From an uncultured Cellulophaga sp. (lineage in GTDB: Bacteria; Bacteroidota; Bacteroidia; Flavobacteriales; Flavobacteriaceae): a stretch of 64,000 nucleotides of DNA. The notes beneath the pieces are model-generated. The model was not told the DNA's origin. It did not search any database and saw nothing but the letters and a program-made list of their open reading frames with translations. The DNA lies in the NCBI GenBank assembly GCA_947492955.1, contig CANLOV010000012.1:1-64000 (forward strand). The letters are read 5' to 3'. Position 1 is the stretch's first letter. Every line of letters begins with the position of its first letter. Positions 13,253 through 64,000 of the stretch are shown one piece after another. A program made the translations under genes and the position numbers.

Positions 13253-14242
13253 TTATTTGCTTTTTAACTTCCAAGTACGAATCCATTTATACTGTGTTGT
13301 CCTTTCCTCTTCTGATGCTTTATCAAATATACCCCCATCATCAGGAATTGGATTCCAATCATACGTTTCAATTGCCATATGTAAATATGCAGGCATATCC
13401 CACTCTACTGATGGTTTTATACTATAAACATATTTTCCATCTAAAAAAAACTGTACTTCTTCCTTAGACTTCCACCAAGCACCATAAACAAAAAAACGCT
13501 CCCAATTTTTATCTTCAGTTGCTATACTACCTTGTTTTTGTATGGATTCTGGATTACAACTTGTTTTACGATGAATTGTATTGGAATGGTATATTTTATC
13601 CCAATCCTTAGCCCATTCTTTTGTTTTTTCTGTTGTTCTTCCTACACATTCTTGAATATCTAACTCTAATTTTTTCTCGCAATCGTATTTAGTCATAAGC
13701 CAAAAAGTAGAAGACATTACCGTTTTATTGGCTTTCATTTTACATTCGAAATACCAACCTACTTTACCTGAGTTTTTGGAACGTACAATACCGCCTTGAT
13801 GTGTAAACTTTTTTCCATTTATGGTTTCTGGACTACTTAATTTACTAACAACTACATTTAAACTTCCGTTTTTTACACTTACATTACTAGCTTTAAATAA
13901 ACCTGGAGGTCTTCCTATCCACATCCAACTATTACCTACAGGCTCTTTCTGCCATTTAGCAGTGTTTAAATAATCCCCATTAAACTCATCGGACATATTA
14001 TCTACCTTTTCCCAAACTTTCTGCTTTGGTTTTGGGTCCTCTCCTAAATTAAAGGTTGGCTTATTGCCATTTAATATGGGGTTATTGTTAAAAGTTTTCT
14101 GTTGTATAAATTCACTTTCTAGTGTGGTTTTTTCTTCTTCAGAGCTTTTAACATGGCTACTACCGCATCTTAGGTTTAATGGCGTAATTAAAAATAGTAA
14201 CATTAATTTTACCCCAACAAATTTAAACCATTGCAACTTCAT
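13253..14242 (-). CDS. GH16 family glycoside hydrolase (agarase/porphyranase-like), probable lipoprotein
   Basis: The 329-residue protein has a signal-like N-terminus with Cys26 in NLRC (an imperfect lipobox), a low-complexity linker to about residue 75, then a GH16 beta-jelly-roll domain. The catalytic motif ExDxxE reads ELDIQE at residues 193-198, giving nucleophile Glu193 and acid/base Glu198. The subsite residues WMWIGRPPGLF and DGKYVYSI resemble beta-agarase/porphyranase subfamilies, which cut red-algal galactans. It is a lone gene without a SusCD pair. The exact substrate cannot be read from sequence alone. Confidence 0.85.
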   Translation of the reverse strand: MKLQWFKFVGVKLMLLFLITPLNLRCGSSHVKSSEEEKTTLESEFIQQKTFNNNPILNGNKPTFNLGEDPKPKQKVWEKVDNMSDEFNGDYLNTAKWQKEPVGNSWMWIGRPPGLFKASNVSVKNGSLNVVVSKLSSPETINGKKFTHQGGIVRSKNSGKVGWYFECKMKANKTVMSSTFWLMTKYDCEKKLELDIQECVGRTTEKTKEWAKDWDKIYHSNTIHRKTSCNPESIQKQGSIATEDKNWERFFVYGAWWKSKEEVQFFLDGKYVYSIKPSVEWDMPAYLHMAIETYDWNPIPDDGGIFDKASEEERTTQYKWIRTWKLKSK

Positions 14243-49658: not shown

Positions 49659-52600
49659 CTAGTTAACTTTTATATATTGAAGATAATCATTGTTTTTAGC
49701 AGCGATAATGTAGTTATTTTCCTTAATACCTATTACTTGCATATCTTTTACATCGCCTGACACAAAAAAGCCTGTTTCTGATGCTGGGATAACTTTAAAA
49801 GTTCCGTTACCGTTTCCTTTTAAAAACTGACCATAACTTGCATCGTTTCTGGGAGTTTCTACTTCTGAAACATATAAATTACCCACAATAAGTGCATCTA
49901 AAAAACCATCTTTATCATAATCATTTACCAAAATCTTATTTATACTAGAAATTTGTGCTTCTTGTGGTAACTTATGCACTATTAGTTTTCCGTTTTTGTT
50001 TTCTAGGTATATACTTGCAAAGGATTTTACTTGGTAGTGCACTGCCGTTTCTAAAGATTTTTCTGAATATACATCTTCTAAAGTGGCTTTAGAAAAACTC
50101 TCATAATTTTTAAATTTTTGCTTTATTCCTGGTATTTGTTGCGAGGAACATTCTCTACCTCTCACAGGGTATTGTTCTCCTTCATTATAATAACTTAATA
50201 CAATATCATCCTTATTATCTTTATCAAAATCATTCATATAAATATCAAAAGTTTCATCTTCAGTAGCTTTGTATTTATAGTTTAGCCCATTATTCCCTAC
50301 TATATAATCTACGTCTCCATCGTTATCAAAATCTCCTTCTTCTATACTCCACCACCAACCTGTAGTATCTGTTGATAGTCCTAAATCTTCTGAAACTTCT
50401 TTAAAACCATTCTGCGTGTTTTTAAAAACTTTTATAGGCATCCACTCTCCTACCATAATAATATCTTGCCAACCATCATTATTATAATCTGTAATAACAG
50501 CACTGGTTGCCATTCCGAGATTTTTAAATTGATTAGATACAGACTCTTTAAAAAAGTTGAATTTTATATTTTCTTTATCGCTATTATTTTTTAACAAATA
50601 TGTTGTTGCTGGTGATGGGTATTTTCCTGGAACCTGTCTTCCTAAAACCAATATATCTTGTTTGCCGTCTTTATCAAAATCGGCTGTATATACTTTTGAA
50701 GTACTGGTGAGCATACTTGGTAATGCATTAGCTGCCGCCTTTGTAAATTCTCCCTCTCCATTATTTACATATAACCTATCTTGTAATAATTTAGAATCTG
50801 GCGAAAATTCGTATCCGCCACTTGTAACATATAAATCGTTATCTCCATCATTATCAGCATCAAAAAACAATGCATTTATATCCTCATTTAATTTATCATC
50901 CTTAAAAACTGCTAGCTCTTGCTTTAAAAACCCATTACCTGTTTGTATAAATATAGCACCACTTTTTCCAAATGAAGCTCCTATATAATAATCTTCTAAA
51001 CCATCATTATTTACGTCGCCAACAGCCAAAGCAGGGCCAAAACTAGACATTTTATGTGGCAATAATACTTGATACTTAAAGTCATCAAAATTATTCTCTT
51101 GATGCTTATATTTCGGAAATACATTTTTTATATCTGTTACAAATAATGGTTTTTCTTTATTTGTAGATATACTTTCCGCAACTGCATTTGTATATTTTAA
51201 ATGAATACTTTTATTAACAGAAATATTTTCTATAGTTTGTACTTTTCCATCTGTCCAAATTACTTTAAGCTCATCTATACTATCTACTGTTCCTAAACCA
51301 AAATGTAATTCTGGAGCTACTGAGGACTGAAAGCCTCTTGTTAGTGTTAACTCTTGCATTTGTTGCCTAGCACCAACTTTTATATAAACTCTATTACCTA
51401 ATCCAAATTTATTTCCTTTTGCCCCCTCGAAACTTACTTTTAAATAATTACTTGTCTCAGCACTTTTATTTTCAAAAACAGAAGCATAATCATCTATATT
51501 ATTGGTTATAATTTCTAAATCTCCATCATTATCTAAATCTGCATAAGAAACTCCGTTGGAAAAGCCTTCATAAGTAATTCCCCATTTTTTATTTACCTGT
51601 TCAAAATCTAAATCCCCTTTATTTTTAAACATAAAATTATCTATCTTCTCAGAAGGGATTTCCATGCTTAAGGCTAATTTTTTATCATCGTCTATTTTTA
51701 TCTCCTTTAGCTTCGTAAAATAATCTCTATTATTTACTTCTCTACGGGTACCATTAGTTACAAATAAATCTTTATAGCCATCATTATCAAAATCTGCAAA
51801 TAACGGACCCCAACTCCAATCTGTAGAGGAGGTTCCTGTAATCCTAGATACATCTGAAAAATGTGGAACACCATTAGTATAAACACCTGTGTTTGCCTGA
51901 AAACAGTTTTGCATATATTGATAATGAAATCCTGCATTTACAACATCCCAAAACAAAGTAGGATTCATACTAGCCATATTTGCTTTTTGGCGCCTATTAC
52001 TCTTAGCATCCATATCTACCTGAAAAACATCTAAATTTCCATCATTATTAAAATCTGCAATATCTACTCCCATACCATAAAAGGCTGTATGTGCAGTTGC
52101 TTTTTTTACAACTTCTTTATAAGTACCATCTTGCTGATTAATATAGAGGTAATCTGGCGAACTAAAATCGTTAGATATGTATATATCTGGCCAAGAATCG
52201 TTATTTAAATCTCCTACAGTAGCACTTAACGAAAGTCCAAAACTTTTTAGCCCTGCTGCTTTTGTAACATCTGTAAAAAATTTTCCATCATTTCTATATA
52301 GATGGTCTGTTTCTACATCTGTTACATTTCTCATTTTATTGGTATAAACAAATGTTGGCGCGTTAAAAGGTGTTTCTGGATAATTAGCCACATAAACATC
52401 TAAATCTCCGTCTTTATCATAATCTAAAAATGTAGCTTGCACACTATTCCCTATATCGTCTAAACCATAGTCCGATGCTTTCTCTGTAAAGGTTCCGTTT
52501 TTATTATTTATAAATAACTGATTGCCTTTAGGATTAAATTTTCCTGCTACAGAACAATAAATATCTAAATAACCATCATCATTAACATCTGCCATGGTAA

Positions 52601-52958
52601 CACCTGTATACCAACGATTATCCCCTGCCATATTAGCTTTCGCTGTAATATCTTCGAATTCTAAATTTCCTTTATTTAAATAGAGTTTATTAGAGACCTG
52701 GTTTCCTGTAAAATAAATATCTTGTAAGCCATCATTATTAATATCTCCTACAGCCACACCACCACCCATGTATAGGTAAGAATAGGTGAAGTAATTTAAA
52801 GAATCGTTCTCTGTAAGTGTATTACTAAATTTAATATTTGAACTGGTATGTTTTACATTGGAGAATATTGTAGCATCTTTATTTTCTATACGTTGCGTAC
52901 AACTAATAAGCTGAAGTAATAAAACAAAAAAAGCAATTTTACATATATTCATCCTCAT
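49659..52958 (-). CDS. FG-GAP/VCBS repeat lipoprotein with ASPIC/UnbV domain
   Basis: The roughly 1,099-residue protein starts MRMNICKIAFFVLLLQLISC, a lipoprotein signal. It contains many FG-GAP/VCBS blades with Ca-binding DxNxDGxxD motifs (DINNDGLQDIY, DYDKDGDLDVY and others) forming beta-propellers, and an ASPIC/UnbV domain near 505-590. Such proteins often follow SusCD genes in marine Bacteroidota and may bind glycans at the cell surface; the role is unproven. It follows glpD by 24 nt. A GTG three codons upstream was not used. Confidence 0.88.
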   Translation of the reverse strand: MRMNICKIAFFVLLLQLISCTQRIENKDATIFSNVKHTSSNIKFSNTLTENDSLNYFTYSYLYMGGGVAVGDINNDGLQDIYFTGNQVSNKLYLNKGNLEFEDITAKANMAGDNRWYTGVTMADVNDDGYLDIYCSVAGKFNPKGNQLFINNKNGTFTEKASDYGLDDIGNSVQATFLDYDKDGDLDVYVANYPETPFNAPTFVYTNKMRNVTDVETDHLYRNDGKFFTDVTKAAGLKSFGLSLSATVGDLNNDSWPDIYISNDFSSPDYLYINQQDGTYKEVVKKATAHTAFYGMGVDIADFNNDGNLDVFQVDMDAKSNRRQKANMASMNPTLFWDVVNAGFHYQYMQNCFQANTGVYTNGVPHFSDVSRITGTSSTDWSWGPLFADFDNDGYKDLFVTNGTRREVNNRDYFTKLKEIKIDDDKKLALSMEIPSEKIDNFMFKNKGDLDFEQVNKKWGITYEGFSNGVSYADLDNDGDLEIITNNIDDYASVFENKSAETSNYLKVSFEGAKGNKFGLGNRVYIKVGARQQMQELTLTRGFQSSVAPELHFGLGTVDSIDELKVIWTDGKVQTIENISVNKSIHLKYTNAVAESISTNKEKPLFVTDIKNVFPKYKHQENNFDDFKYQVLLPHKMSSFGPALAVGDVNNDGLEDYYIGASFGKSGAIFIQTGNGFLKQELAVFKDDKLNEDINALFFDADNDGDNDLYVTSGGYEFSPDSKLLQDRLYVNNGEGEFTKAAANALPSMLTSTSKVYTADFDKDGKQDILVLGRQVPGKYPSPATTYLLKNNSDKENIKFNFFKESVSNQFKNLGMATSAVITDYNNDGWQDIIMVGEWMPIKVFKNTQNGFKEVSEDLGLSTDTTGWWWSIEEGDFDNDGDVDYIVGNNGLNYKYKATEDETFDIYMNDFDKDNKDDIVLSYYNEGEQYPVRGRECSSQQIPGIKQKFKNYESFSKATLEDVYSEKSLETAVHYQVKSFASIYLENKNGKLIVHKLPQEAQISSINKILVNDYDKDGFLDALIVGNLYVSEVETPRNDASYGQFLKGNGNGTFKVIPASETGFFVSGDVKDMQVIGIKENNYIIAAKNNDYLQYIKVN

Positions 52959-52982
52959 AAGACACACATTATTAACTATTAT

Positions 52983-54641
52983 TTACACTGCCGCCGGAGT
53001 AGCATGCCTCTCTATTTCCATAGTTAAAATATTGGCATACTCTGCTATTTTTTCTTCTGATAAATTAAAGGTAGTTTTAAATTCTTTTAAAATAACATCC
53101 TGATATTTTCGTATACTATCTATATCAAAATACAATCTTCCTGTTCTACGAATAAAAAAATCCATAGGAGTTTGTACACCTTCATAATTAATACAGAAGT
53201 GTAATTCTGCTTTTAGCATACGCTCGTATAAATCCTTTGCTTTAGTTACTTTAAATATTTCTAAAATATCTTCTACTTGTTTACCATAAGTTGTAGTAAG
53301 GTACCATGCATCATAATGCTTAAAACCAAAAGGTTCTATTCTATTATATAATGTATTTATATACTGTTTTACCTCTTCGTAATTTGCCCATGGACCGCCA
53401 CATAATGAAATTTGATCTGTAAACGATTTCTTAGTTTCTTTTTTATAATTATCTTCTAACTTATCTTGTACAATATCTAAGATACGTTCTGCCATTTTTC
53501 TATACCCTGTAAGCTTACCACCGGCAATACTTATTAATCCGGTATCAGAAGTAAAAATTTCATCTTTTCTAGATAATTCTGAAGGCGATTTTCCGTCTTC
53601 GTGGATTAATGGGCGTACTCCTGCCCAGCTAGAAATAATATCTTTTTTTTCTAAATAAATATCAGGAAACATATTATTTGTGCCATTAATAATATAAGTA
53701 GCATCTGTATCATCAGCAATAATATTATTTTTATCTGCTTTATAATCTGTATCGGTAGTACCTACATACGTAACTTTTCCTCTTGGTATTGCAAACATCA
53801 TTCTACCATCTGGTACATCAAAATAAACTGACTGCTTTAAAGGTAATTTGCTATGTGGAAAAACTAAATGTACTCCTTTAGTTAAATGTAACTGTTTTCC
53901 CTTTTTAGATTTATTAATACTCCTAAGCTCATCTACCCAAGGGCCTGCCGCATTAATAACATACTTAGATTTAATTTCATATTTTTCTCCAGAAATTTGG
54001 TCTTCTATAGCTACCCCCGCTATTTTATTATCTTTCTCAATAAAATCTACTACTTGGCTATAATTTAAAGCTGTTCCCGAAAAATTTAAAGCTGTTTTTA
54101 TGTTTTCTATGGTTAGCCTTGCGTCATCTGTTCTATATTCTGCATAATAACCAGAACCTTTTAATATACTTTTTGGAAGCAATGGCTCTAATTTCATTGT
54201 GGCAGATTTACCTAGCATTTTACGCCTGTCGTCTCCTTTAACTTTTGCTAAAATATCATAGACTTTTAAGCCTATAGAGGTCATAAACTTACCATAGGAA
54301 CCGTTTTTAATAAGCGGTAGCAACATTTTCTCTGGAATTACCAAGTGTGGAGCCAACTTATGTACAATTAAACGCTCTGTTCCTACTTCATTCACCAATT
54401 TAAAATCGAACTGCTTTAGATAGCGTAGTCCTCCATGGATTAATTTAGTTGATTTGCTACTTGTTCCTGATGCAAAATCTCTTTTTTCTACCAAAGCAAC
54501 TTTCATCCCTCTAGATGCAGCATCTAATAATATTCCTGCTCCTGTAATACCACCACCTATAACCACCAAATCATATTCGGTTTCTTTTAAGGTTGTAATC
54601 GTATTTTGCCTATCAAGGTTTGTAAACCTTTTTGTTTGCAT
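52983..54641 (-). CDS. glpD: FAD-dependent glycerol-3-phosphate dehydrogenase
   Basis: The 552-residue membrane-associated flavoprotein oxidises sn-glycerol-3-phosphate to dihydroxyacetone phosphate and passes electrons to menaquinone. It shows the dinucleotide-binding VVIGGGITGAGILLDA (25-40), ASGTSSKSTKLIHGGLRYL (57-75) and a C-terminal DAO_C domain. It follows glpK by 37 nt. In this window it most probably handles glycerol released by the GH36 enzyme. Confidence 0.96.
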   Translation of the reverse strand: MQTKRFTNLDRQNTITTLKETEYDLVVIGGGITGAGILLDAASRGMKVALVEKRDFASGTSSKSTKLIHGGLRYLKQFDFKLVNEVGTERLIVHKLAPHLVIPEKMLLPLIKNGSYGKFMTSIGLKVYDILAKVKGDDRRKMLGKSATMKLEPLLPKSILKGSGYYAEYRTDDARLTIENIKTALNFSGTALNYSQVVDFIEKDNKIAGVAIEDQISGEKYEIKSKYVINAAGPWVDELRSINKSKKGKQLHLTKGVHLVFPHSKLPLKQSVYFDVPDGRMMFAIPRGKVTYVGTTDTDYKADKNNIIADDTDATYIINGTNNMFPDIYLEKKDIISSWAGVRPLIHEDGKSPSELSRKDEIFTSDTGLISIAGGKLTGYRKMAERILDIVQDKLEDNYKKETKKSFTDQISLCGGPWANYEEVKQYINTLYNRIEPFGFKHYDAWYLTTTYGKQVEDILEIFKVTKAKDLYERMLKAELHFCINYEGVQTPMDFFIRRTGRLYFDIDSIRKYQDVILKEFKTTFNLSEEKIAEYANILTMEIERHATPAAV

Positions 54642-54678
54642 AATTTTCTTTTTCTAATTTAATATTTAGCAATAATCT

Positions 54679-56172
54679 TTACTCGTTTTCCCAACTCATA
54701 CTACGTTTTATAGCTTTTTGCCAACCTTTGTATTTTTTACTTCTATTTTCTTCTGCCATTTTTGAGTTAAATATAGTATCTATACTTTTACTACTGAGAA
54801 CATCTTTTTCTGTCCATAATCCTATGGTAATACCTGCTAAATAAGCTGCTCCAAGTGCTGTAGATTCTACCGAAGCAGGTCTTATTACTTCTTTATTTAA
54901 AATATCTGCTTGGAATTGCATTAGGTAATTATTTGCTGATGCGCCTCCGTCTACTTTTAACGACTTTAGTTCTACCTCAGCATCATTCTGCATAGCTTCT
55001 AGAATATCTCTTGTTTGGTAGGCTAAACTATCTAGAGTTGCCCTAACAATATGCCTCTGACCGGTATCCCTAGTTAAACCAAAAATAGCACCACGTGCAT
55101 ACATATCCCAATAAGGTGCTCCCAAACCTGCAAAAGCTGGCACTACATATACAGGATTATCTTCTGCTAGTTCTTGTGCAATTTTTTCTGATTCTTTAGC
55201 ATTACTAATTAGTTTTACCTCGTCTCTAAGCCATTGTATTGCTGCACCTGCAATAAAAATACTTCCTTCTAATGCATATACAACTTTTCCGTTGAGTCCC
55301 CAGGCTATTGTAGTTAAAAGACCATTTTTAGAATACTGAGGTTTTTCACCAGTATTCATCAACATAAAACAACCTGTACCATAAGTGTTTTTTGCTTCTC
55401 CTTTCTTAAAACACGCCTGCCCAAACAACGCTGCTTGTTGATCACCAATAATACTTGTTATAGGAATTTTTACCCCTCCAATTTCATAATCTCCAAAATG
55501 AGATGCCGAAGGCTTTACTTCTGGCAACATACTCATAGGAATTCCTAATTCATTAATCAACTTTTGATCCCATTCTAAACTATTAATATTATAAATTAAA
55601 GATCTAGATGCATTTGTATAATCGGTTACGTGTTGTTTTCTATTCGTTAAATTCCAGACCAACCATGTATCTACCGTTCCAAAAAGCAAATTACCTTCTT
55701 TTGCTTTTTTTCTGGCTCCATCTACATTATCTAAAATCCACTTTATTTTTGTTGCAGAAAAATAAGAATCTATAATTAATCCTGTGTTTTCCTTTACATA
55801 TTTAGATAAACCTCTCTTTTTTAAATCTTCACAAATAGGAGCTGTTCGTTTATCTTGCCAAACAATGGCGTTATATATTGGCTCTCCTGTTTGCTTATCC
55901 CAAATAATAGTTGTTTCTCTTTGGTTAGTAATACCAATGCTACTTACTTGGTTAATAGATATATTTTGGTTGATTAATAAATTTTTAAAAACATTTAATT
56001 GCGAGTCTAATATATCTTTAGGATTATGTTCTATCCACCCAGAAACAGGGTAAATCTGAGGAAACTCTTGTTGTTCTATTCCTACTATTTCCCCACTACA
56101 ATTTACAAGTAAAGCTCTAGAACTTGTAGTTCCTTGATCTAATGCTATTATATATTTTTTTTCTGAAATCAT
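54679..56172 (-). CDS. glpK: Glycerol kinase
   Basis: The 497-residue FGGY-family kinase has the family starts [14 protein letters not shown] (10-23) and [14 protein letters not shown] (about 78-91, glycerol-contacting Arg-Glu), Trp in [20 protein letters not shown] and the [11 protein letters not shown] loop. It phosphorylates glycerol to sn-glycerol-3-phosphate. It follows the symporter gene by 13 nt; no glpF facilitator is in the operon. Confidence 0.97.
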
Positions 56173-56185
56173 TTCTAATTCTTAC

Positions 56186-57844
56186 TTAAAAAATGAAATA
56201 AGTACTTAAAACTAAAAGTGTAATAATAACACCTACTATTTTAGCGTATTTCCAAGGTTCTATATTTATTTCTTCTGTAATTTTTGGCGTATATATTTTT
56301 GTATTAGGATATAGCATGCCCATTAACAACATAAAGCCTACGTTAATAACAAAAAGGATTCCCATAATATGTAAAAAGTGAGGGTATGCCTTAGCTTTTA
56401 TAATTCCTAACGCTTTAATATCTGTGATACCTTTAAGTGCTGCTTCTGCCATTGCTGCATCTACAAAATAAGGACTAAGTACAAATTGACTTATTAAATA
56501 CATAAGCACACCTACTGTTAAAACAATTTTAACTGCTATTGCAGGTACATTTTTAGTAAGCATCCCAACTACAACTACTGCTAAAATTGGCCCACTTAAA
56601 CTTCCTAAAGATTCCTGAATATAGGAAAATAATCCGTCTGATGCATTGACTATAAAAGGTGCTATAGTCATAGAAATAATAGCTAATACTATTCCAAATA
56701 CTTTACCTGCTTTAACCATTTTTAATTCTGAAGCATTGCTATTAAAATATTGTCTATAAAGATCTACACCAAATAATGTTGAACTACTATTTAGTAAGCT
56801 ATTAAAAGAACTTAAGACAGCTCCAAATAAAACTGCTGCAAAGAAACCTAAAAATCCTGCTGGTAATACTTTACGAACTAATGCAGGGTATGCCTGATCT
56901 GCATTTTCTAAATTACCATCGAACAAATGCCAAGCAATAATACCCGGTAATACTACTATAATTGGAATTAAGAATTTTACAAACCCTGCTAATATCATTC
57001 CTTTTTGTCCTTCCTTTAAACTTTTAGCTCCGAATACACGTTGTAATATAGATTGGTTTGTTCCCCAATAATACATTTGTGCTATCATCATTCCTGTGAA
57101 AATAGTGCTAAAAGGAATAAAAGAATCTATTTCTCCTTTGGCATTAAATTTTTCTGGGTTTGCTTCCCAAAGCTTAGTTAGCCCATCGGAAACACTACCA
57201 CCATCACCAATCATCATTAAACCAAAAACAGGAATTAATAAACCTCCTATTAATAAACCTATAGCATTTACTAAATCTGATACTGCTACAGCTTTTAAAC
57301 CACCAAAAATGGCATAAATAGAACCTATTATTCCTATAGACCAAACAGATACCCAGATTATTGTAGATTGTGGTACTCCTAACACTTCTGGCAAATTAAA
57401 CATTGTGCTAAAAGCTAAAGAACCAGAATATAATATCGTGGGCAATAATACCACTCCAAAAGCAACTAAAAATAATATAGATAATATAGATTTTGCTTGA
57501 GCATCAAATCGTTCCTGAATAAATTCTGGGATTGTTGTAATACCAGATTGCATATATTTTGGCAATAAGTATATCGCTGTAACAATCATAGAAATTGCAG
57601 CCAATGTTTCCCATGCCATTACTAAAACTCCTTGTGCAAAAGACTGTCCGTTTAAGCCTACTATTTGCTCTGCGGAAAGGTTTGTTAGCAATAAAGATCC
57701 CGCTATTGTAATATACCCAAGGCTTCGGCCTCCTAAATAATAGCCATCAGCAGATTTTTCATCTGTTTTTCGTGTAGCATACCATGCAATAAAAGCAACT
57801 AATGATGTAAAACCAAGAAATGAAATAATTGATAATGTACCCAT
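56186..57844 (-). CDS. SLC5-type solute:sodium symporter
   Basis: The 552-residue inner-membrane transporter has about 13-14 helices, with GYYLGGRSLGY (35-45), a Na/substrate region TNLSAEQIVGLNGQ near 54 and the helix GSIYAIFGGLKAVAVSDL near 173. It is in the vSGLT/SglT-like group, which import sugars or sugar alcohols with sodium. Between glpK (13 nt) and the alpha-galactosidase (13 nt), it is the natural inner-membrane importer for the heteroside cleaved by the latter. Confidence 0.92.
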   Translation of the reverse strand: MGTLSIISFLGFTSLVAFIAWYATRKTDEKSADGYYLGGRSLGYITIAGSLLLTNLSAEQIVGLNGQSFAQGVLVMAWETLAAISMIVTAIYLLPKYMQSGITTIPEFIQERFDAQAKSILSILFLVAFGVVLLPTILYSGSLAFSTMFNLPEVLGVPQSTIIWVSVWSIGIIGSIYAIFGGLKAVAVSDLVNAIGLLIGGLLIPVFGLMMIGDGGSVSDGLTKLWEANPEKFNAKGEIDSFIPFSTIFTGMMIAQMYYWGTNQSILQRVFGAKSLKEGQKGMILAGFVKFLIPIIVVLPGIIAWHLFDGNLENADQAYPALVRKVLPAGFLGFFAAVLFGAVLSSFNSLLNSSSTLFGVDLYRQYFNSNASELKMVKAGKVFGIVLAIISMTIAPFIVNASDGLFSYIQESLGSLSGPILAVVVVGMLTKNVPAIAVKIVLTVGVLMYLISQFVLSPYFVDAAMAEAALKGITDIKALGIIKAKAYPHFLHIMGILFVINVGFMLLMGMLYPNTKIYTPKITEEINIEPWKYAKIVGVIITLLVLSTYFIF

Positions 57845-57857
57845 AATTTAGTTGTTT

Positions 57858-59630
57858 TTATTTTTTTAAAGTTAGCCTTAATAATCCACAAGCCGGAGTT
57901 TCTATTTCTATTAATCCTTTTGTTAATATAATATCTTTTTTATTTACAATAGAACCTTTACAGTTATATACTTCTAATTCATATATACCTAAATCCTTAG
58001 ACATTCTTAATATAACAGCTGTATTTAACTGAGCATTAATAACATCTATTTTACTTTCTTTATTATTTAAGGTAATTACATACTCATCATAAACTCCAAT
58101 AATACGATGATTGTTTTTAACAATTTGCTTTATTGGATAATTTGCTAAAGGTTTAGAGGGTATAAAATCTCCCTCCATTAAAATAGACGCATTCTCTTTC
58201 CAATACTCTGTATAAAAAGAAACCATATTTAATTGATCTTGGGGTATTTTATGCAACATTACAGATACTTGTGGTACACCAAATAAGGTATTTACCATTT
58301 GTAATGCTGCTACCTCTACAGGTTCTTTAACATGCCAAGTAATCATATCTGAATGTACAGCTGTATTACCACATAACATTTTTATATCGGCAATTCTTAC
58401 CCTGTTCATTGTTGCATCTCCTGGGCAATCGAAAGCTCTTAACATGTTTCCATATTTACGCATTGCCGGGCCTATATATTTTTGTCTAAACTCTATAAAA
58501 ATCTCAGGATTTATGTTTTGTAATGTAGTTATAACATCTGTTAACAGCCTGTCTACCGCAAGGTTTATAGACCCATAATCTCTTCCATTTTCTTTTCCTA
58601 AAGGCGTATCTTTATATAACCTAAAATCATCTATAAAATCTAATTTTAACCCATCTAATTTCCAGTCTTTTACCGCATTTGCATATATGTTGATAAGATA
58701 TGCTCTAATCTCTGGATAACGAGGATCAAACACTGGAGCCCAACGATGATCTTCTGTTAAAAATTTACCTTTAAACTTCTTATAAGCCTTTGATTTTTTT
58801 CCACAAAAAGGTACTGAATACCACAAGGCTACTTTCATATCTAAATTATGGATGCTTGATACGAACGATGCCATCTCTGGTATACGATCTGGTTGCCAAT
58901 CTCCGGTATAATCGTACCCTCTATTGTTATCATTTGTTTGCCAGCCATCATCTATAATAATAGCCTTATAACCAATACTACTTGCTATTTTACATTCTTT
59001 TAATAATGTAGGTATATCTAAATCTTGATGAAATTGATACCATGTAGAATACAAAGGCTCTTTAGCTATTGCGGGCACATATGCTGGCTTTAAGACTTCA
59101 AAAGTTTCCCACCATTGAGATACATCCATTAAAGCATTTGAAAAAAGAATATTTCTATAATCTAAACGCAATTGAGTTTTAAACTTTTTTAATTTATACT
59201 CCTGCTCAGAAAAAAAAGTAATGTGACAATAAAAATAATTATCTTCTTCTCGTATACGCGCATTCATCTCTAACTTATCTATAGCATTAGCACACGCAAA
59301 TGTTAACACATTAACATCATCATTCCCAAATAAACTAATAACAGGCGAATCTATAGATATTCTAGATTCCATATGATCTAATTCCCAATCTGCCTGAATC
59401 CTTTTAGCAAAATCTGTTGTTGGTTTCCATACTCCCTTTACATTTATTGCTGGTATTTTCCATTGCAGTGTTATAGGTTTTATATAACCATTCTCTTTAT
59501 TATTTATTTCAAAATCGTAAAAAACAATACCTTCTTTATCATAAACTTTAGTTAATGATGTTTTAATTGTATTATCTACCGCTTGAATTTTAATTTCATC
59601 TGCCTTCTTTTCAATGGTATTTATATTCAT
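57858..59630 (-). CDS. GH36-type alpha-galactosidase, cytoplasmic
   Basis: The 590-residue protein has a beta-sandwich N-terminus, then a TIM barrel: AIIIDDGWQTND (223-234), WAPVFDPRYPE (297-307) and the nucleophile Asp331 in GLKLDFIDDF. The acid/base is probably in AFDCPGD (399-405). GH36 enzymes release alpha-linked galactose. No signal peptide is seen, so it should cut an imported small galactoside inside the cell. Its operon-mates glpK and glpD point to a galactosyl-glycerol substrate. Confidence 0.87.
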   Translation of the reverse strand: MNINTIEKKADEIKIQAVDNTIKTSLTKVYDKEGIVFYDFEINNKENGYIKPITLQWKIPAINVKGVWKPTTDFAKRIQADWELDHMESRISIDSPVISLFGNDDVNVLTFACANAIDKLEMNARIREEDNYFYCHITFFSEQEYKLKKFKTQLRLDYRNILFSNALMDVSQWWETFEVLKPAYVPAIAKEPLYSTWYQFHQDLDIPTLLKECKIASSIGYKAIIIDDGWQTNDNNRGYDYTGDWQPDRIPEMASFVSSIHNLDMKVALWYSVPFCGKKSKAYKKFKGKFLTEDHRWAPVFDPRYPEIRAYLINIYANAVKDWKLDGLKLDFIDDFRLYKDTPLGKENGRDYGSINLAVDRLLTDVITTLQNINPEIFIEFRQKYIGPAMRKYGNMLRAFDCPGDATMNRVRIADIKMLCGNTAVHSDMITWHVKEPVEVAALQMVNTLFGVPQVSVMLHKIPQDQLNMVSFYTEYWKENASILMEGDFIPSKPLANYPIKQIVKNNHRIIGVYDEYVITLNNKESKIDVINAQLNTAVILRMSKDLGIYELEVYNCKGSIVNKKDIILTKGLIEIETPACGLLRLTLKK

Positions 59631-59699
59631 TGGTGTATTTATTTAAAATAATATATAAATGGTTCTATTTTACAGTATATGATATTCTATGCTACACTA

Positions 59700-59741
59700 C
59701 AAATGTATTGCAAAATTATACACTATATACAGTTTTGTATA
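59700..59741 (-). promoter_or_regulatory. Promoter and inverted-repeat operator of the GH36-SLC5-glpKD operon
   Basis: On the minus strand a perfect -7 box TACATTTG (59707-59700) lies 62-70 nt from the GH36 ATG at 59630. No TTG is at -33. Instead the inverted repeat TATAC-AGTTTT-GTATA (59726-59741 on the plus strand) covers that position, and a looser TGTAT-N9-ATACA overlaps it. This looks like a regulator-controlled promoter, separate from the susCD transcript. Confidence 0.55.
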
Positions 59742-59773
59742 CATAAAAAATATATTTGAAAATGTTTTTTAAA

Positions 59774-59804
59774 AAAAGCCAAGTAATTAAATCACCTGGC
59801 TTTT
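59774..59804 (-). terminator. Terminator after susD
   Basis: On the minus strand AAAAGCCA-(G)GT ... AC(T)-TGGCTTTT forms a stem with one mismatch and is followed by more T. It lies 40 nt after the susD stop and separates susCD from the catabolic operon, at least partly. Confidence 0.75.
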
Positions 59805-59844
59805 AATCACTCAATTACAAACTCAAACAAATCAATATCTTTTT

Positions 59845-61455
59845 TTAATACCCATCATTTTGGTCCAAATTAGGGTTCGCATCTCTTTCTGAATTTGGAA
59901 TCCATATTAACTCGTGTTTTCCAGATTGGAAAGTACCACCACTTAATGATTTAGGATGATTGGATTGAGACCCATTAATAACATGTAATGAAGTTGCTCC
60001 CATATAATCATCTGCTAATCCCCAACGTACTAAATCAAAGAAACGATGTCCTTCTCCTGCTAATTCCATAGCTCTTTCATCTATAATAGCCTGCCTCATA
60101 GCTATTTGGTCTAATCCAGCTACTGGTGCTATCATAGCTCTTTCTCTTACCATATTAACATAAGTTTCTGCTTGTGAAGTCATATTATCTTCGTTTAATG
60201 CTTCTGCTAACATTAATAAAACATCGGAATATCTAATAATTCTCCAGTTATTACCCACGTTTGTTCCTAAGAAATCTACATCTGCCCTTGCTCCCAACTC
60301 CATACCAGAATATTTTTTACCATAAATGGCTTCTAAACCTGCATTAGTTGCAGTTGTAATATCCCCATCCACAGGGTTTCCATCATCGTCTACAGTATCT
60401 GCTAAATCTTCAGCGTACAACAAACCTCCATAGCCAGTAGCTCCTGGATAATCATATAGCAATGTTTCGTTTCTTCTAACTTCATCTCCATTAGTTTCAA
60501 ACAAATTTTTTAACCAAGGATTTATTACGTGTCCTTTATCTGGCGATTTTGTTGGTGTTGCATAATCTATATGAAAATTACCCATTGATCCTGCTCCTGG
60601 TATATCTGTACCCCAAACAAAAGTCTCTTGTCCTAAAAATTGTAACTCAAATACAGATTCTGAATTATTTTCATTGGTTACTCCAAAATTATCTCCAAAC
60701 TGTGCCGCAGGTAATAAAGCATACTTACCTACCAATGTAGCTAAAGTTGTATGCGCCATATTCCAATCTTTCATATACAAATAACTCTTACCTTTTAATG
60801 CCGTTGCAGCTCCTGAAGTTGCTCTTCCAATATCATCTCCACTCCATGCTTCTGGTAGCATTGTTTCTGCTTTTTCTAAATCAGAAATTATTTGTGCCCA
60901 AACTGCTTCTGGAGCTGCTTGTTCTACTAATAAATTATCTAAATCTGGCTCATCTATAATTAATGGCACATTACCATATAGATTTACTAAATACCAATAA
61001 TCGAAAGCTCTTAAAAAATAAGCCTGACCTATTAAACTTTCTCTAATAGTTGTATCTGGTATACCTTCTTCTGTTGTATTTAATATAATATTATTACACC
61101 TAGCAATAGATTTATAAAGCTCTTGCCATGGTTCTGTTGCCCAACGACCGTTTCCTGGCTCTCCTTGGAATGTAGACATTAATGTATTTGTGTCGTTAGA
61201 AAATACATTAAACTCATCTGAACGTAATAAAGCTCCTGTATGTATTATACGACCCCAAAAAAATGTTCCTGTTATTGGATGAAAAGCTCCATTTATTGCT
61301 GCATTTACCTGCTCTACAGATGTTCCAAAATTAGCTGTTGATGTTGCATTATTATTCTGTTGTTCAAGAATATCATCAGAACAAGCTGTCGCTACCACTA
61401 ATAACCCAAGGGTTATTGTTTTGCAATAGGATTTTAATTTAAATATTTTTTTCAT
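59845..61455 (-). CDS. susD: SusD/RagB family outer-membrane nutrient-binding lipoprotein
   Basis: The 536-residue protein has a lipoprotein signal (TACSDD, Cys about 25) and the SusD TPR-like helices, with RAFDYWYLVNLYGNVPLI near 147 and the C-terminal RDANPNLDQNDGY. It binds the ligand on the cell surface and acts as lid on SusC. It starts 11 nt after susC ends. The ligand cannot be predicted from this sequence alone; the neighbouring genes suggest a small galactoside. Confidence 0.95.
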   Translation of the reverse strand: MKKIFKLKSYCKTITLGLLVVATACSDDILEQQNNNATSTANFGTSVEQVNAAINGAFHPITGTFFWGRIIHTGALLRSDEFNVFSNDTNTLMSTFQGEPGNGRWATEPWQELYKSIARCNNIILNTTEEGIPDTTIRESLIGQAYFLRAFDYWYLVNLYGNVPLIIDEPDLDNLLVEQAAPEAVWAQIISDLEKAETMLPEAWSGDDIGRATSGAATALKGKSYLYMKDWNMAHTTLATLVGKYALLPAAQFGDNFGVTNENNSESVFELQFLGQETFVWGTDIPGAGSMGNFHIDYATPTKSPDKGHVINPWLKNLFETNGDEVRRNETLLYDYPGATGYGGLLYAEDLADTVDDDGNPVDGDITTATNAGLEAIYGKKYSGMELGARADVDFLGTNVGNNWRIIRYSDVLLMLAEALNEDNMTSQAETYVNMVRERAMIAPVAGLDQIAMRQAIIDERAMELAGEGHRFFDLVRWGLADDYMGATSLHVINGSQSNHPKSLSGGTFQSGKHELIWIPNSERDANPNLDQNDGY

Positions 61456-61466
61456 GATTATTTTTT

Positions 61467-64000
61467 TTAAAAAGTTACCTTAAGACCCAACATAAATGTT
61501 CTTGCATTTGGATATGCTCTTTGATCTAACCCTCTACCCAATAAAGGATTAACATCTGATCTTAACCCTGGAACACCAGAATTTAAATTTGCTCTACCAC
61601 TATTCGTTGATGCCACATCTGGATCATAACCACTATAATCTGTAATTACAAATACATTTTGCACATTTAATGATAACCTAGTTTGTTTAATCCAATCTAC
61701 ACCAAATGCATTTTCAGGGAAGTTATACCCTACTTCTAAGTTTTTTAATCTAAAATAAGACCCGTTTTCTACAAAGAAAGAAGATGGCGCTTTGTTACCT
61801 GCATCATCACCGATAGATGCTCTAGGAATACTAGTGTCTGTATTGCTTGGAGTCCAAGAATTTAATACATCTGTTAGTTTTCCTCCATCTTGCCATAAAA
61901 TATTATAATACCTACTTAAGTTATAAATTTCGTTCCCAGATACTCCGTTAAAATTTAAAGAAAAATCAAAACTTTTATACTCTCCTGTAAAATTAAAACC
62001 ATAGGTAAAATCTGGCGTTGGATTACCAATAACAGTCTGGTCGTCTGCTGTAATACCAGGAACGCCATCTGTATCTACTCTCACAAAATCACCAGTAGTA
62101 GGGTCTACTTTATCTTCAACTATATATCCGTAGAATGCACCTACAGGTCCATTAGCTTCTGTTCTGTTTACAATACGTAAATCCTCATCAACTCCAGGTC
62201 CTAAAATTGTAGCTGGTATATCTTTTGCTTCATTTTTAAGATTAAAAGAAAAATTAGTTCCTACTCTATATGTAAATTCTCCTTCTGATTTTCTATACCC
62301 TAAATCAAATTCAAATCCATTATTAATAAGTGTTCCCGCGTTTCTTACCACTGGTAAACTTACCCCTGCTGTAGAAGGTATATTAATTGGCACTAATGCA
62401 TCCTCTACATCTTTTGAATAATAATCCGCAGAAAAAGTAATAGCACTATTTAGGAAATTCATATCCACACCAATATCAAATGTTTTTGTTGTTTCCCATA
62501 CTAAATTTTCATCTGCTAAAGAGGTTTGCGCTAAACCATTTGCAGTTACCCCATTAAAAGTTGTATTAGATTGGTTTGCAAGAAAGACTGCTTGTGTTGG
62601 ATAAAACTCATCTGGATATGAGCCTAATTCTCCATAGGACATTCTTAACTTAAGAAAATTGATAGTTTCTGAATCCCAAAAGTCTTCATTTGAAATATTC
62701 CAAGCTCCAGATACCGATGGGAAATACCCAACTTGATTATCTTTTGCAAACCTAGACGAAGCGTCTCTTCTTAAGGTTCCAGAAAAAACATACTTATCAT
62801 TAAAGTTATAATTTAAACGCCCAAAATAAGATATTAAACCTGCTTCGCTATCCTGACCTAATAAAATATTTTGATCACTTGCTGGTAATGCACCAACTAC
62901 CTGAATACTATTAGCAGGTGTTCCTTGCCCATAAATACCACTACTCTTTTGGTTCTCTATAAAACGAGTATAACCTAACACTACAGAAACATTATGCTTT
63001 TCGTTAAATGTTTTTTTATAGGATAATGTTGGTTCAAATAATAAGTTTATATCTTCTTGATTAAAGTTTGTAAGATCATTTGTTGTATTAACATTTCTTA
63101 CGGCATCCAAAGTACTCATAAAATACGTTGGTGTAAATTGAAATTGATTAACAGTAGTATAATCAACACCTAAATTAATCGCTGCTGTTAATTCTTCTGT
63201 TACTTTGTAATCTAATTTTAAACTACCAAATAAAGTACGTGTAGTTTCTAAATTGTTTTCTAATGTTGCTAAAGCGTATTGATTAACACCTCCTGGACCT
63301 TGTACTCCTCCAGACGGAGCCTCAAAACCACCTTCATTAGCCTCATTTCTTAATGCAACAGTCGGTGCTGTTGTACCATCAAAACCATACCAATTATTAG
63401 ATTGTAACTTACCTTCGGTAATTCCTAACGATTGTACTAATTTAAATTTTCCAAATTCATGAGTACTATTAAATCTAGCGTTTAACCTTCTAAATCCAGA
63501 ACCTATTAATATACCATCTTGATTAAAATGATTAATAGACGCAAAATAAGATGAGTTTTCGCCACCTCCCGATAATGTTAAGCCATAATCTTCTACAATA
63601 CCACTTTGGAGGTTTTCATCTTGCCAATCGGTATCTACTCCATTGTTAGAAACTACGGTAGAAGAACCATCGTTTACAAAACGCTGATTTAAATAATCTG
63701 TATATTGTTGTCCGTTAATAAAATCTAACTTTTTACTTGGCGTATCGAACCCTAGTCTTGTATTAAGAACAACCTCCAAAGCTTTATTTTTTCTACCATG
63801 ATTTGTTTTAATTAACACCACACCATTAGCTGCTCTAGACCCATAAATAGCTGCTGCTGCTGCATCTTTAAGAACAGAAATATCTTGTATATCGTTAGGG
63901 TTTATATAGTTCATATTATCTACAAACAAACCATCTATGATAAAAAGCGGAGATGCATTACTTAAGGAATTAATACCACGAATAAACACATTTCCTGTTC
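61467..64000 (-). CDS. susC: SusC/RagA TonB-dependent outer-membrane transporter (partial, 5' end outside window)
   Basis: The C-terminal 844 residues are present. The frame is open to the window edge, where it reads TGNVFIRGINSLSN followed by PLFIIDG, the typical plug-domain motif, then VLKDAAAAAIYGSRAANGV (the TonB-dependent SusC signature). The rest is beta-barrel, ending in LGLKVTF with a terminal Phe. The N-terminal signal, carboxypeptidase-like domain and TonB box lie beyond 64000. It imports the SusD-bound ligand into the periplasm. Confidence 0.95.
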   Translation of the reverse strand, partial: TGNVFIRGINSLSNASPLFIIDGLFVDNMNYINPNDIQDISVLKDAAAAAIYGSRAANGVVLIKTNHGRKNKALEVVLNTRLGFDTPSKKLDFINGQQYTDYLNQRFVNDGSSTVVSNNGVDTDWQDENLQSGIVEDYGLTLSGGGENSSYFASINHFNQDGILIGSGFRRLNARFNSTHEFGKFKLVQSLGITEGKLQSNNWYGFDGTTAPTVALRNEANEGGFEAPSGGVQGPGGVNQYALATLENNLETTRTLFGSLKLDYKVTEELTAAINLGVDYTTVNQFQFTPTYFMSTLDAVRNVNTTNDLTNFNQEDINLLFEPTLSYKKTFNEKHNVSVVLGYTRFIENQKSSGIYGQGTPANSIQVVGALPASDQNILLGQDSEAGLISYFGRLNYNFNDKYVFSGTLRRDASSRFAKDNQVGYFPSVSGAWNISNEDFWDSETINFLKLRMSYGELGSYPDEFYPTQAVFLANQSNTTFNGVTANGLAQTSLADENLVWETTKTFDIGVDMNFLNSAITFSADYYSKDVEDALVPINIPSTAGVSLPVVRNAGTLINNGFEFDLGYRKSEGEFTYRVGTNFSFNLKNEAKDIPATILGPGVDEDLRIVNRTEANGPVGAFYGYIVEDKVDPTTGDFVRVDTDGVPGITADDQTVIGNPTPDFTYGFNFTGEYKSFDFSLNFNGVSGNEIYNLSRYYNILWQDGGKLTDVLNSWTPSNTDTSIPRASIGDDAGNKAPSSFFVENGSYFRLKNLEVGYNFPENAFGVDWIKQTRLSLNVQNVFVITDYSGYDPDVASTNSGRANLNSGVPGLRSDVNPLLGRGLDQRAYPNARTFMLGLKVTF

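Follow-up and report, generated by a model that had tools for sequence, protein, structure and literature searches.

What does a locus with a SusC/SusD pair feed on if its only glycoside hydrolase appears to stay in the cytoplasm and its last genes include a glycerol kinase and a glycerol-3-phosphate dehydrogenase? The question is raised by positions 49659-64000 of the DNA stretch studied here (the window: bases 1-64000 of the 95,753 bp contig C12 in a 3.87 Mb genome of an uncultured Cellulophaga sp., which is in 57 contigs and 99.8% complete). A sequence-only reading had proposed that the locus serves the use of an alpha-galactosyl-glycerol, namely floridoside (2-O-alpha-galactosyl-glycerol). 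The present analysis supports that proposal by the synteny of 70 related loci, by an operator shared between the genes concerned and by the finding that the only glpK and glpD detected in the genome lie at this locus. It is probable, on these grounds, that the locus comprises two operons forming a regulon for alpha-galactosyl-glycerol, with floridoside as the likeliest substrate. Floridoside is described as a main osmolyte and carbon reserve of red algae, and it has also been reported from a cnidarian-algal symbiosis.

In the direction of transcription the gene order is gntR, susC-susD, a terminator-like hairpin, GH36, an SSF symporter, glpK, glpD and a gene for an FG-GAP lipoprotein. The seven genes from SusC to FG-GAP/UnbV that had been listed in the window were all recovered by family and coordinate, and all are on the minus strand. 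SusC is a complete TonB-dependent receptor of 1004 amino acids (aa) (C12 61467-64481, window part 61467-64000; TIGR04056, 601 bits, over cut-off) and is followed by the SusD lipoprotein (59845-61455; PF07980, over cut-off). The second group consists of the GH36-fold alpha-galactosidase (57858-59630), predicted to be cytoplasmic, an SLC5-type sodium/solute symporter of the SSF family (56186-57844; NF007790 (PRK10484), 710 bits, over cut-off), the glycerol kinase GlpK (54679-56172; TIGR01311, 724.7 bits, over cut-off), the glycerol-3-phosphate dehydrogenase-like GlpD (52983-54641; DAO and DAO_C domains) and the surface lipoprotein (49659-52967; FG-GAP and UnbV_ASPIC over cut-off, LISC lipobox read by eye). 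The close spacing of these five genes, given before as 13-37 nt, was borne out (gaps of 15, 37, 13 and 13 nt). GlpD is assigned less sharply than GlpK: its best glycerol-3-phosphate models in NCBIfam score below their cut-offs (NF033461, 479 bits against 840; PRK12266, 336 bits against 360). Adjacent susC and susD genes are what a SusCD-type polysaccharide utilisation locus (PUL) has, and the locus resembles a PUL in its working, yet it is not filed here as a polysaccharide PUL because its only hydrolase is the predicted cytoplasmic GH36; no secreted or periplasmic polysaccharide-cleaving enzyme was found in the locus.

The Pfam match of the hydrolase is weak (Melibiase, 28.3 bits against a cut-off of 27), and its family was assigned with the help of fold comparison. 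An AlphaFold2 model of the 590-aa protein, built from 29 sequences, had a mean pLDDT of 89.1 and a pTM of 0.90. The 25 best Foldseek matches of the model were alpha-galactosidases and one galactosaminidase (E down to 2e-28, TM 0.61-0.69 on query length, 12-16% identity), all of which we take, partly from their titles, to be GH36 members. The GH36 fold, the DDGW pair and the K-x-D nucleophile motif are present: in a profile alignment to solved structures W197, D227-D228, W270, K329 and D331 fall on the W, DD, W, K and D of known GH36 enzymes, columns that presumably hold the galactose contacts and the nucleophile. D428, invariant in 32 sequences and not covered by the alignment to solved structures, is likely to be the general acid/base aspartate. 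The open frame has 594 codons for 590 residues, leaving no room for a signal peptide, in agreement with the earlier description of the enzyme as signal-less. By fold and location the protein would thus be a cytoplasmic GH36 enzyme, with alpha-galactosyl-glycerol as its predicted substrate. It shares its fold (TM 0.61-0.69) and the aligned W, DD, W, K and D with SpAga, AgaA, LaMel36A and the galactosaminidase of Flavonifractor plautii, but it is shorter than these targets (654-755 aa) and belongs to a clade of its own.

That clade was defined from 53 loci of named genomes (including Maribacter, Aquimarina, Kordia, Dokdonia, Croceivirga, Poritiphilus, and Saprospiraceae and Lewinellaceae bins) and 36 loci of same-family genomes; after removal of six duplicates there were 84 GH36 proteins including that of the window. 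One genome of the family sample, G334, encodes a GH36 that over its final 500 residues does not differ from that of Maribacter vaceletii (L036 and L091), which points to Flavobacteriaceae as the family. In a FastTree phylogeny 70 non-redundant loci, the window among them, form clade A (52-69% identity to the window protein, fork support 98), and the 14 others (34-48%) serve as outgroup. A simple window measure detects a hydrophobic N-terminus in none of the 70 clade-A proteins, as opposed to 12 of the 14 outgroup proteins, and the clade-A enzyme is therefore taken to be cytoplasmic where symporter and sugar or glycerol genes are present. The nearest relatives of clade A are those with signal peptides, often encoded beside GH97 and sulfatase genes. 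L111-L122, a related GH36 group of this sort in which most but not all members have a signal peptide, is probably a different, extracytoplasmic galactoside system.

Neighbouring genes were counted within 9 kb of GH36, in whatever flank each locus offered; several contigs stop near the gene. An SSF symporter is present in 63 of the 70 clade-A loci (in 8 of the 63 solely a distant SSF of 31-34% identity), GntR in 51, SusC and SusD in 56 each and an FG-GAP homologue in 50. Glycerol genes occur in 31 loci (glpK and glpD as separate genes in 12, fused to GlpK-GlpD in 16, glpD alone in three) and galactose genes in 29 (galE 17, galK 12, galT 6). One or the other kind is found in 47 loci and both in 13. 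In the 14 outgroup loci there were no SSF, glycerol or galactose genes, and homologues of one GH97 query were near GH36 in six of 14 outgroup against none of 69 clade-A loci, those of one sulfatase in eight of 14 against one of 69. On the GH36 tree at least eight changes of the glycerol genes and at least seven of galK/galT are needed. The GlpK of the window clusters with one unlinked and three further GH36-linked copies. This lineage is separate from the fused forms and their relatives, and glycerol genes have therefore joined GH36 more than once.

This repeated association bears on the idea of a raffinose or melibiose locus that has glycerol genes next to it by chance. Typical bacterial GH36 enzymes do act on raffinose-family sugars, but the glycerol genes return within the clade both by linkage and by operator (see below). 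No invertase or other sucrose-splitting enzyme and no fructokinase was found in the locus, and with one query each no homologue of the GH32 or the sugar kinase of locus L133 was found near GH36 in 69 loci. We regard this explanation as highly improbable.

What binds the genes together at the level of regulation is a putative operator. A GntR-domain regulator of 337 aa is encoded beyond the window at C12 64705-65718; the sequence-only reading had advised looking past position 64000 for a regulator and for galactose (Leloir) genes. galK and galT form an unlinked pair on contig C4. The operator pattern is AGTAGCATAGnnTATCATAGnA, and a matrix was made from 50 sites in the GntR-SusC (or GntR-GH36) gaps of 51 loci. 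All 51 gaps contain a site scoring at least 14, and in 44 of them TAnnTTTG, the Bacteroidetes -7 consensus, stands at most 18 nt upstream. Scanning 69 clade-A loci (1.39 Mb) with the matrix gave 72 sites, 57 before SusC, 14 before GH36 and one elsewhere, while the reversed matrix gave none over the same sequences. The count before SusC is partly circular because the 50 training sites sit in the loci scanned and are included in the 72. Independent evidence comes from ten of the 14 GH36 sites and from the GH36 site of the window itself, all outside the training set, and from the glpK and glpD sites described below.

In the genome of the window the only match to the pattern without mismatch precedes susC (C12:64536-64553, within the first 22-bp operator at C12:64533-64554, beyond the window), and the only one with a single mismatch precedes GH36 (59677-59694). 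This second operator (59675-59696, minus strand, core GTAGCATAGAATATCATAT at 59677-59695) has a matrix score of 17.2. Next to it, at 59700-59707 on the same strand, is TACATTTG, read by eye as the -7-like box of the GH36 operon. Matches with two mismatches are at or near control level (7 against 7 in this genome, 44 against 27 in 25 genomes), and with three mismatches one match was found in the window where 1.3 were expected. Weight was therefore given to sites with at most one mismatch, to where a site lies and to matrix scores exceeding those of shuffles. The linked gene and the conserved operator suggest that GntR may act on susC, and the same type of operator precedes both the alpha-galactosidase and the glycerol catabolism genes. 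Between susD and GH36 there is a 14-bp hairpin with a T-run (59766-59804, minus strand) that is strong on direct folding (-16 kcal/mol, z -6.3), whereas a consensus terminator scan of 59600-59900 found nothing, this hairpin included; no terminator was found after the FG-GAP gene. With the hairpin in this place, transcription is probably divided into two units controlled by the same regulator. Independent transcription of glpK and glpD, which would speak against the proposal, is not what the sequence suggests: both follow GH36 and SSF at intervals of 13-37 nt, behind a single operator and -7-like box.

The family sample of 397 genomes contains 25 with a clade-A GH36. Fifteen of these lack glp genes at the locus, and all 15 were tested (21 upstream regions), a site being accepted if its matrix score was above the 99% level of shuffles. 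In 8 of the 15 genomes an operator stands ahead of an unlinked glpK or glpD, compared with one (G075) of 35 genomes without a clade-A GH36 (Fisher p 9e-5). Five of the eight sites are before glpK (G236, G388, G001, G018, G377) and three before glpD (G211, G086, G341). The value of 8 in 15 may be low, since for GlpD the upstream regions of just 6 of these genomes were covered. A GntR orthologue with an identity of 54% or more is present in 31 of the 397 genomes and in 24 of the 25 with a clade-A GH36, G050 being the one without (p 3e-31). Four of the 35 comparison genomes carry such an orthologue, among them G075, and none of the remaining 31 has an operator site (0/31 against 8/15, p 2.5e-5); one of these siteless genomes, G209, does encode a remote GntR relative (36% identity). 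The regulator appears to accompany alpha-galactosidases in several settings and, in the clade-A genomes, seems to reach glycerol catabolism too. Among GntR-bearing genomes without a clade-A GH36, G032 and G379 have a GH36 of the outgroup in the same locus, and no operator was found before the glp gene tested in G286, G231 and G222, nor before glpK of G384. A distant GntR of 48% identity (G094) adjoins a classical GH36 of 748 aa.

The genome of the window yielded one glpK (E <= 1e-100) and one glpD, both at this locus; the single further glpD match had 25 bits. The earlier remark that a glycerol facilitator is missing from the locus can, to the extent examined, be extended to the genome. Its two MIP proteins, both outside the locus, have NPARS at the second NPA box, where NPARD is the mark of GlpF; one is an AqpZ equivalog (406 bits) and the other passes the general MIP model only, so that no GlpF-type glycerol channel was found. 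Neither of two same-genus genomes in the family sample has the clade-A GH36 or glpK.

Several observations weigh against a dedicated galactosyl-glycerol regulon. Neither glycerol nor galactose genes were found near GH36 in 23 of the 70 clade-A loci, nearly all galE cases are confined to one part of the GH36 tree (and galE has other uses), and the GlpK-GlpD fusion occurs mostly away from GH36. No operator site was seen in the other seven of those 15 genomes whose glp genes are away from the locus. GntR, operator and SusCD-FG-GAP are kept in seven genomes that lack the clade-A GH36, only one of which has an operator before the tested glp gene, and the own galK-galT region on C4 contains no operator. 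A GH2 beta-galactosidase is near GH36 in 3 of 69 clade-A loci, the residues of the SSF site do not discriminate between substrates, and SSF-GlpKD or SSF-GlpK-GlpD units exist without GH36 in L131, L132, L133, L135 and L144.

The beta-galactosidases would fit the headgroup of digalactosyldiacylglycerol (DGDG), alpha-Gal-(1,6)-beta-Gal-glycerol, which likewise yields galactose and glycerol and for which an alpha-galactosidase and glycerol genes would be needed as well. In L079 the GH2 gene is located between GH36 and the symporter, and in L097 and L102 it is within the 9 kb. However, this substrate requires a beta-galactosidase, and homologues of the L079 enzyme are limited to the three loci named, with none at the window locus, which makes the DGDG headgroup a very unlikely substrate.

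The stand-alone SSF units raise the alternative that the symporter takes up free glycerol or galactose, in a general uptake unit to which an alpha-galactosidase was added and of which the heteroside is not the real inducer. Because such units occur without GH36, the symporter could carry glycerol or galactose; they have identical site residues, and identity between the window SSF and the stand-alone form of L144 reaches 85%. The window protein matches the Vibrio sodium/galactose symporter vSGLT over its length (about 220 bits). The galactose contacts of vSGLT named in PMC13099297 are K294, E88, Q69, S91, Q428 and N260; four of the six (K294, E88, Q69, Q428) are kept, whereas S91 is replaced by Ala and N260 by Gln. 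The same residues were seen in 59 of 59 orthologues, in the five stand-alone SSF-glp units and in one SSF beside galK-galT. The last case led us to reject the site residues as proof of galactosyl-glycerol transport. They fit a sugar-binding symporter, without telling galactose, galactosyl-glycerol and glycerol apart, and the four sugar contacts kept speak against this alternative. So do the cytoplasmic GH36, which needs a substrate imported intact, and the pairing of SSF with GH36 also in loci that have no glycerol genes nearby. The loci with a distant SSF only look as if GH36 needed a symporter alongside, and in the SSF phylogeny the stand-alone proteins are nested among those linked to GH36. 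Uptake of the free compounds is, on balance, an unlikely explanation. The units of L131, L132, L133, L135 and L144 may in themselves serve to take up glycerol or different glycerol glycosides; that of L133 adjoins, as judged by eye, a set of LacI, GH32-like lipoprotein, MFS and sugar kinase.

Within the preferred galactosyl-glycerol reading, there remains the choice between two isomers. Floridoside is commoner than isofloridoside in red algae, and it is preferred here only as the commoner compound, since the sequence separates neither isomer. Isofloridoside (1-O-alpha-galactosyl-glycerol), alone or equally with floridoside, would be served by the same genes because the products are identical. 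PMC8509150 reports a GH36 alpha-galactosidase that forms isofloridoside from galactose and glycerol by reverse hydrolysis. We consider isofloridoside a possible but less likely substrate.

The proposed pathway from alpha-galactosyl-glycerol would then be as follows. SusCD would carry the heteroside across the outer membrane, and the symporter, to judge from its linkage to a cytoplasmic GH36, would move it intact across the inner membrane. GH36 would split it in the cytoplasm into galactose and glycerol; GlpK and GlpD, as known for their families, would convert the glycerol to dihydroxyacetone phosphate, and the galactose would pass to the unlinked galK-galT on C4. GntR, probably a repressor that would be released by the heteroside or by galactose, is predicted to control susCD and the GH36-SSF-glpK-glpD operon by binding to the operator just after the -7-like box. 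We lean, with somewhat less assurance, towards a broader statement: that a widespread, dedicated regulon of marine Bacteroidota makes floridoside a carbon source, that its GntR controls SusCD, the symporter and the cytoplasmic GH36 and drafts glycerol catabolism by linkage or in trans, and that the only glycerol catabolism found in this strain serves bound glycerol.

Compared with known systems, the locus shares with the SusCD polysaccharide utilisation loci of Bacteroidetes the SusC/SusD pair, a glycoside hydrolase, an inner-membrane symporter and a linked candidate regulator with a putative operator before susC. It differs from them in the cytoplasmic location of its sole hydrolase, in the glpK-glpD pair at the end of the locus, in the GntR type of the regulator and in the small heteroside predicted as substrate. 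Adjacent GlpK and GlpD recall glpFKD operons, but here GlpF is missing, an alpha-galactosidase would be co-driven and in some relatives GlpK and GlpD are fused. Among the papers listed by searches of open-licence literature, none dealt with bacterial floridoside use through a SusCD locus or regulon. If the interpretation is correct, a SusCD system would be shown to serve a small molecule, the clade-A GH36 together with the operator would be a gene signature for tracing heteroside turnover in metagenomes, and it would become directly testable which organisms consume algal osmolytes and how they regulate this.

The GH16 lipoprotein at 13253-14242, which had been called agarase-like and taken as a pointer to red algae, turned out to be porphyranase-like: its nearest match is porphyranase B (3juu, E 1.2e-72), with a far weaker E of 5.6e-8 for the best beta-agarase, and it gave no Pfam match at 1e-5. 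A porphyranase-like enzyme fits life on red algae. The protein beside galK on C4 was considered as galM and rejected, as it is GldK-like.

The GlpK-GlpD fusion is a single open reading frame of about 1059 aa (L086:11939-15118, also in L054, L060, L131, L138 and others). A match through both halves without stop was found in 14 of the 397 family genomes; only three of these (G138, G177, G326) have a clade-A GH36, and the fusion was rejected as proof of a GH36 link. The one paper listed by a literature search for such a fusion is apparently on intranuclear bacteria. A LacA/Maa-like O-acetyltransferase, which recalls lacA of the lac operon, is near GH36 in 12 of the 70 clade-A loci (e.g. L041:11780-12343). 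In Aquimarina sp. RZ0 a second, classical GH36 (L050:10725-12959; Melibiase, 342 bits) directly follows the clade-A gene. Two further operator-like sites were noted. One (G000:C9:156834-156851, L154; matrix score 25, two mismatches) is between genes that by eye are acyl-CoA-dehydrogenase-like and sodium/proton-antiporter-like, and may mark a further member of the regulon. The other (L185:8097, G236:C1:4892097; one mismatch) precedes a TetR-like gene by 91 bp, and genes for a GAPDH-like protein and a galactose mutarotase follow downstream.

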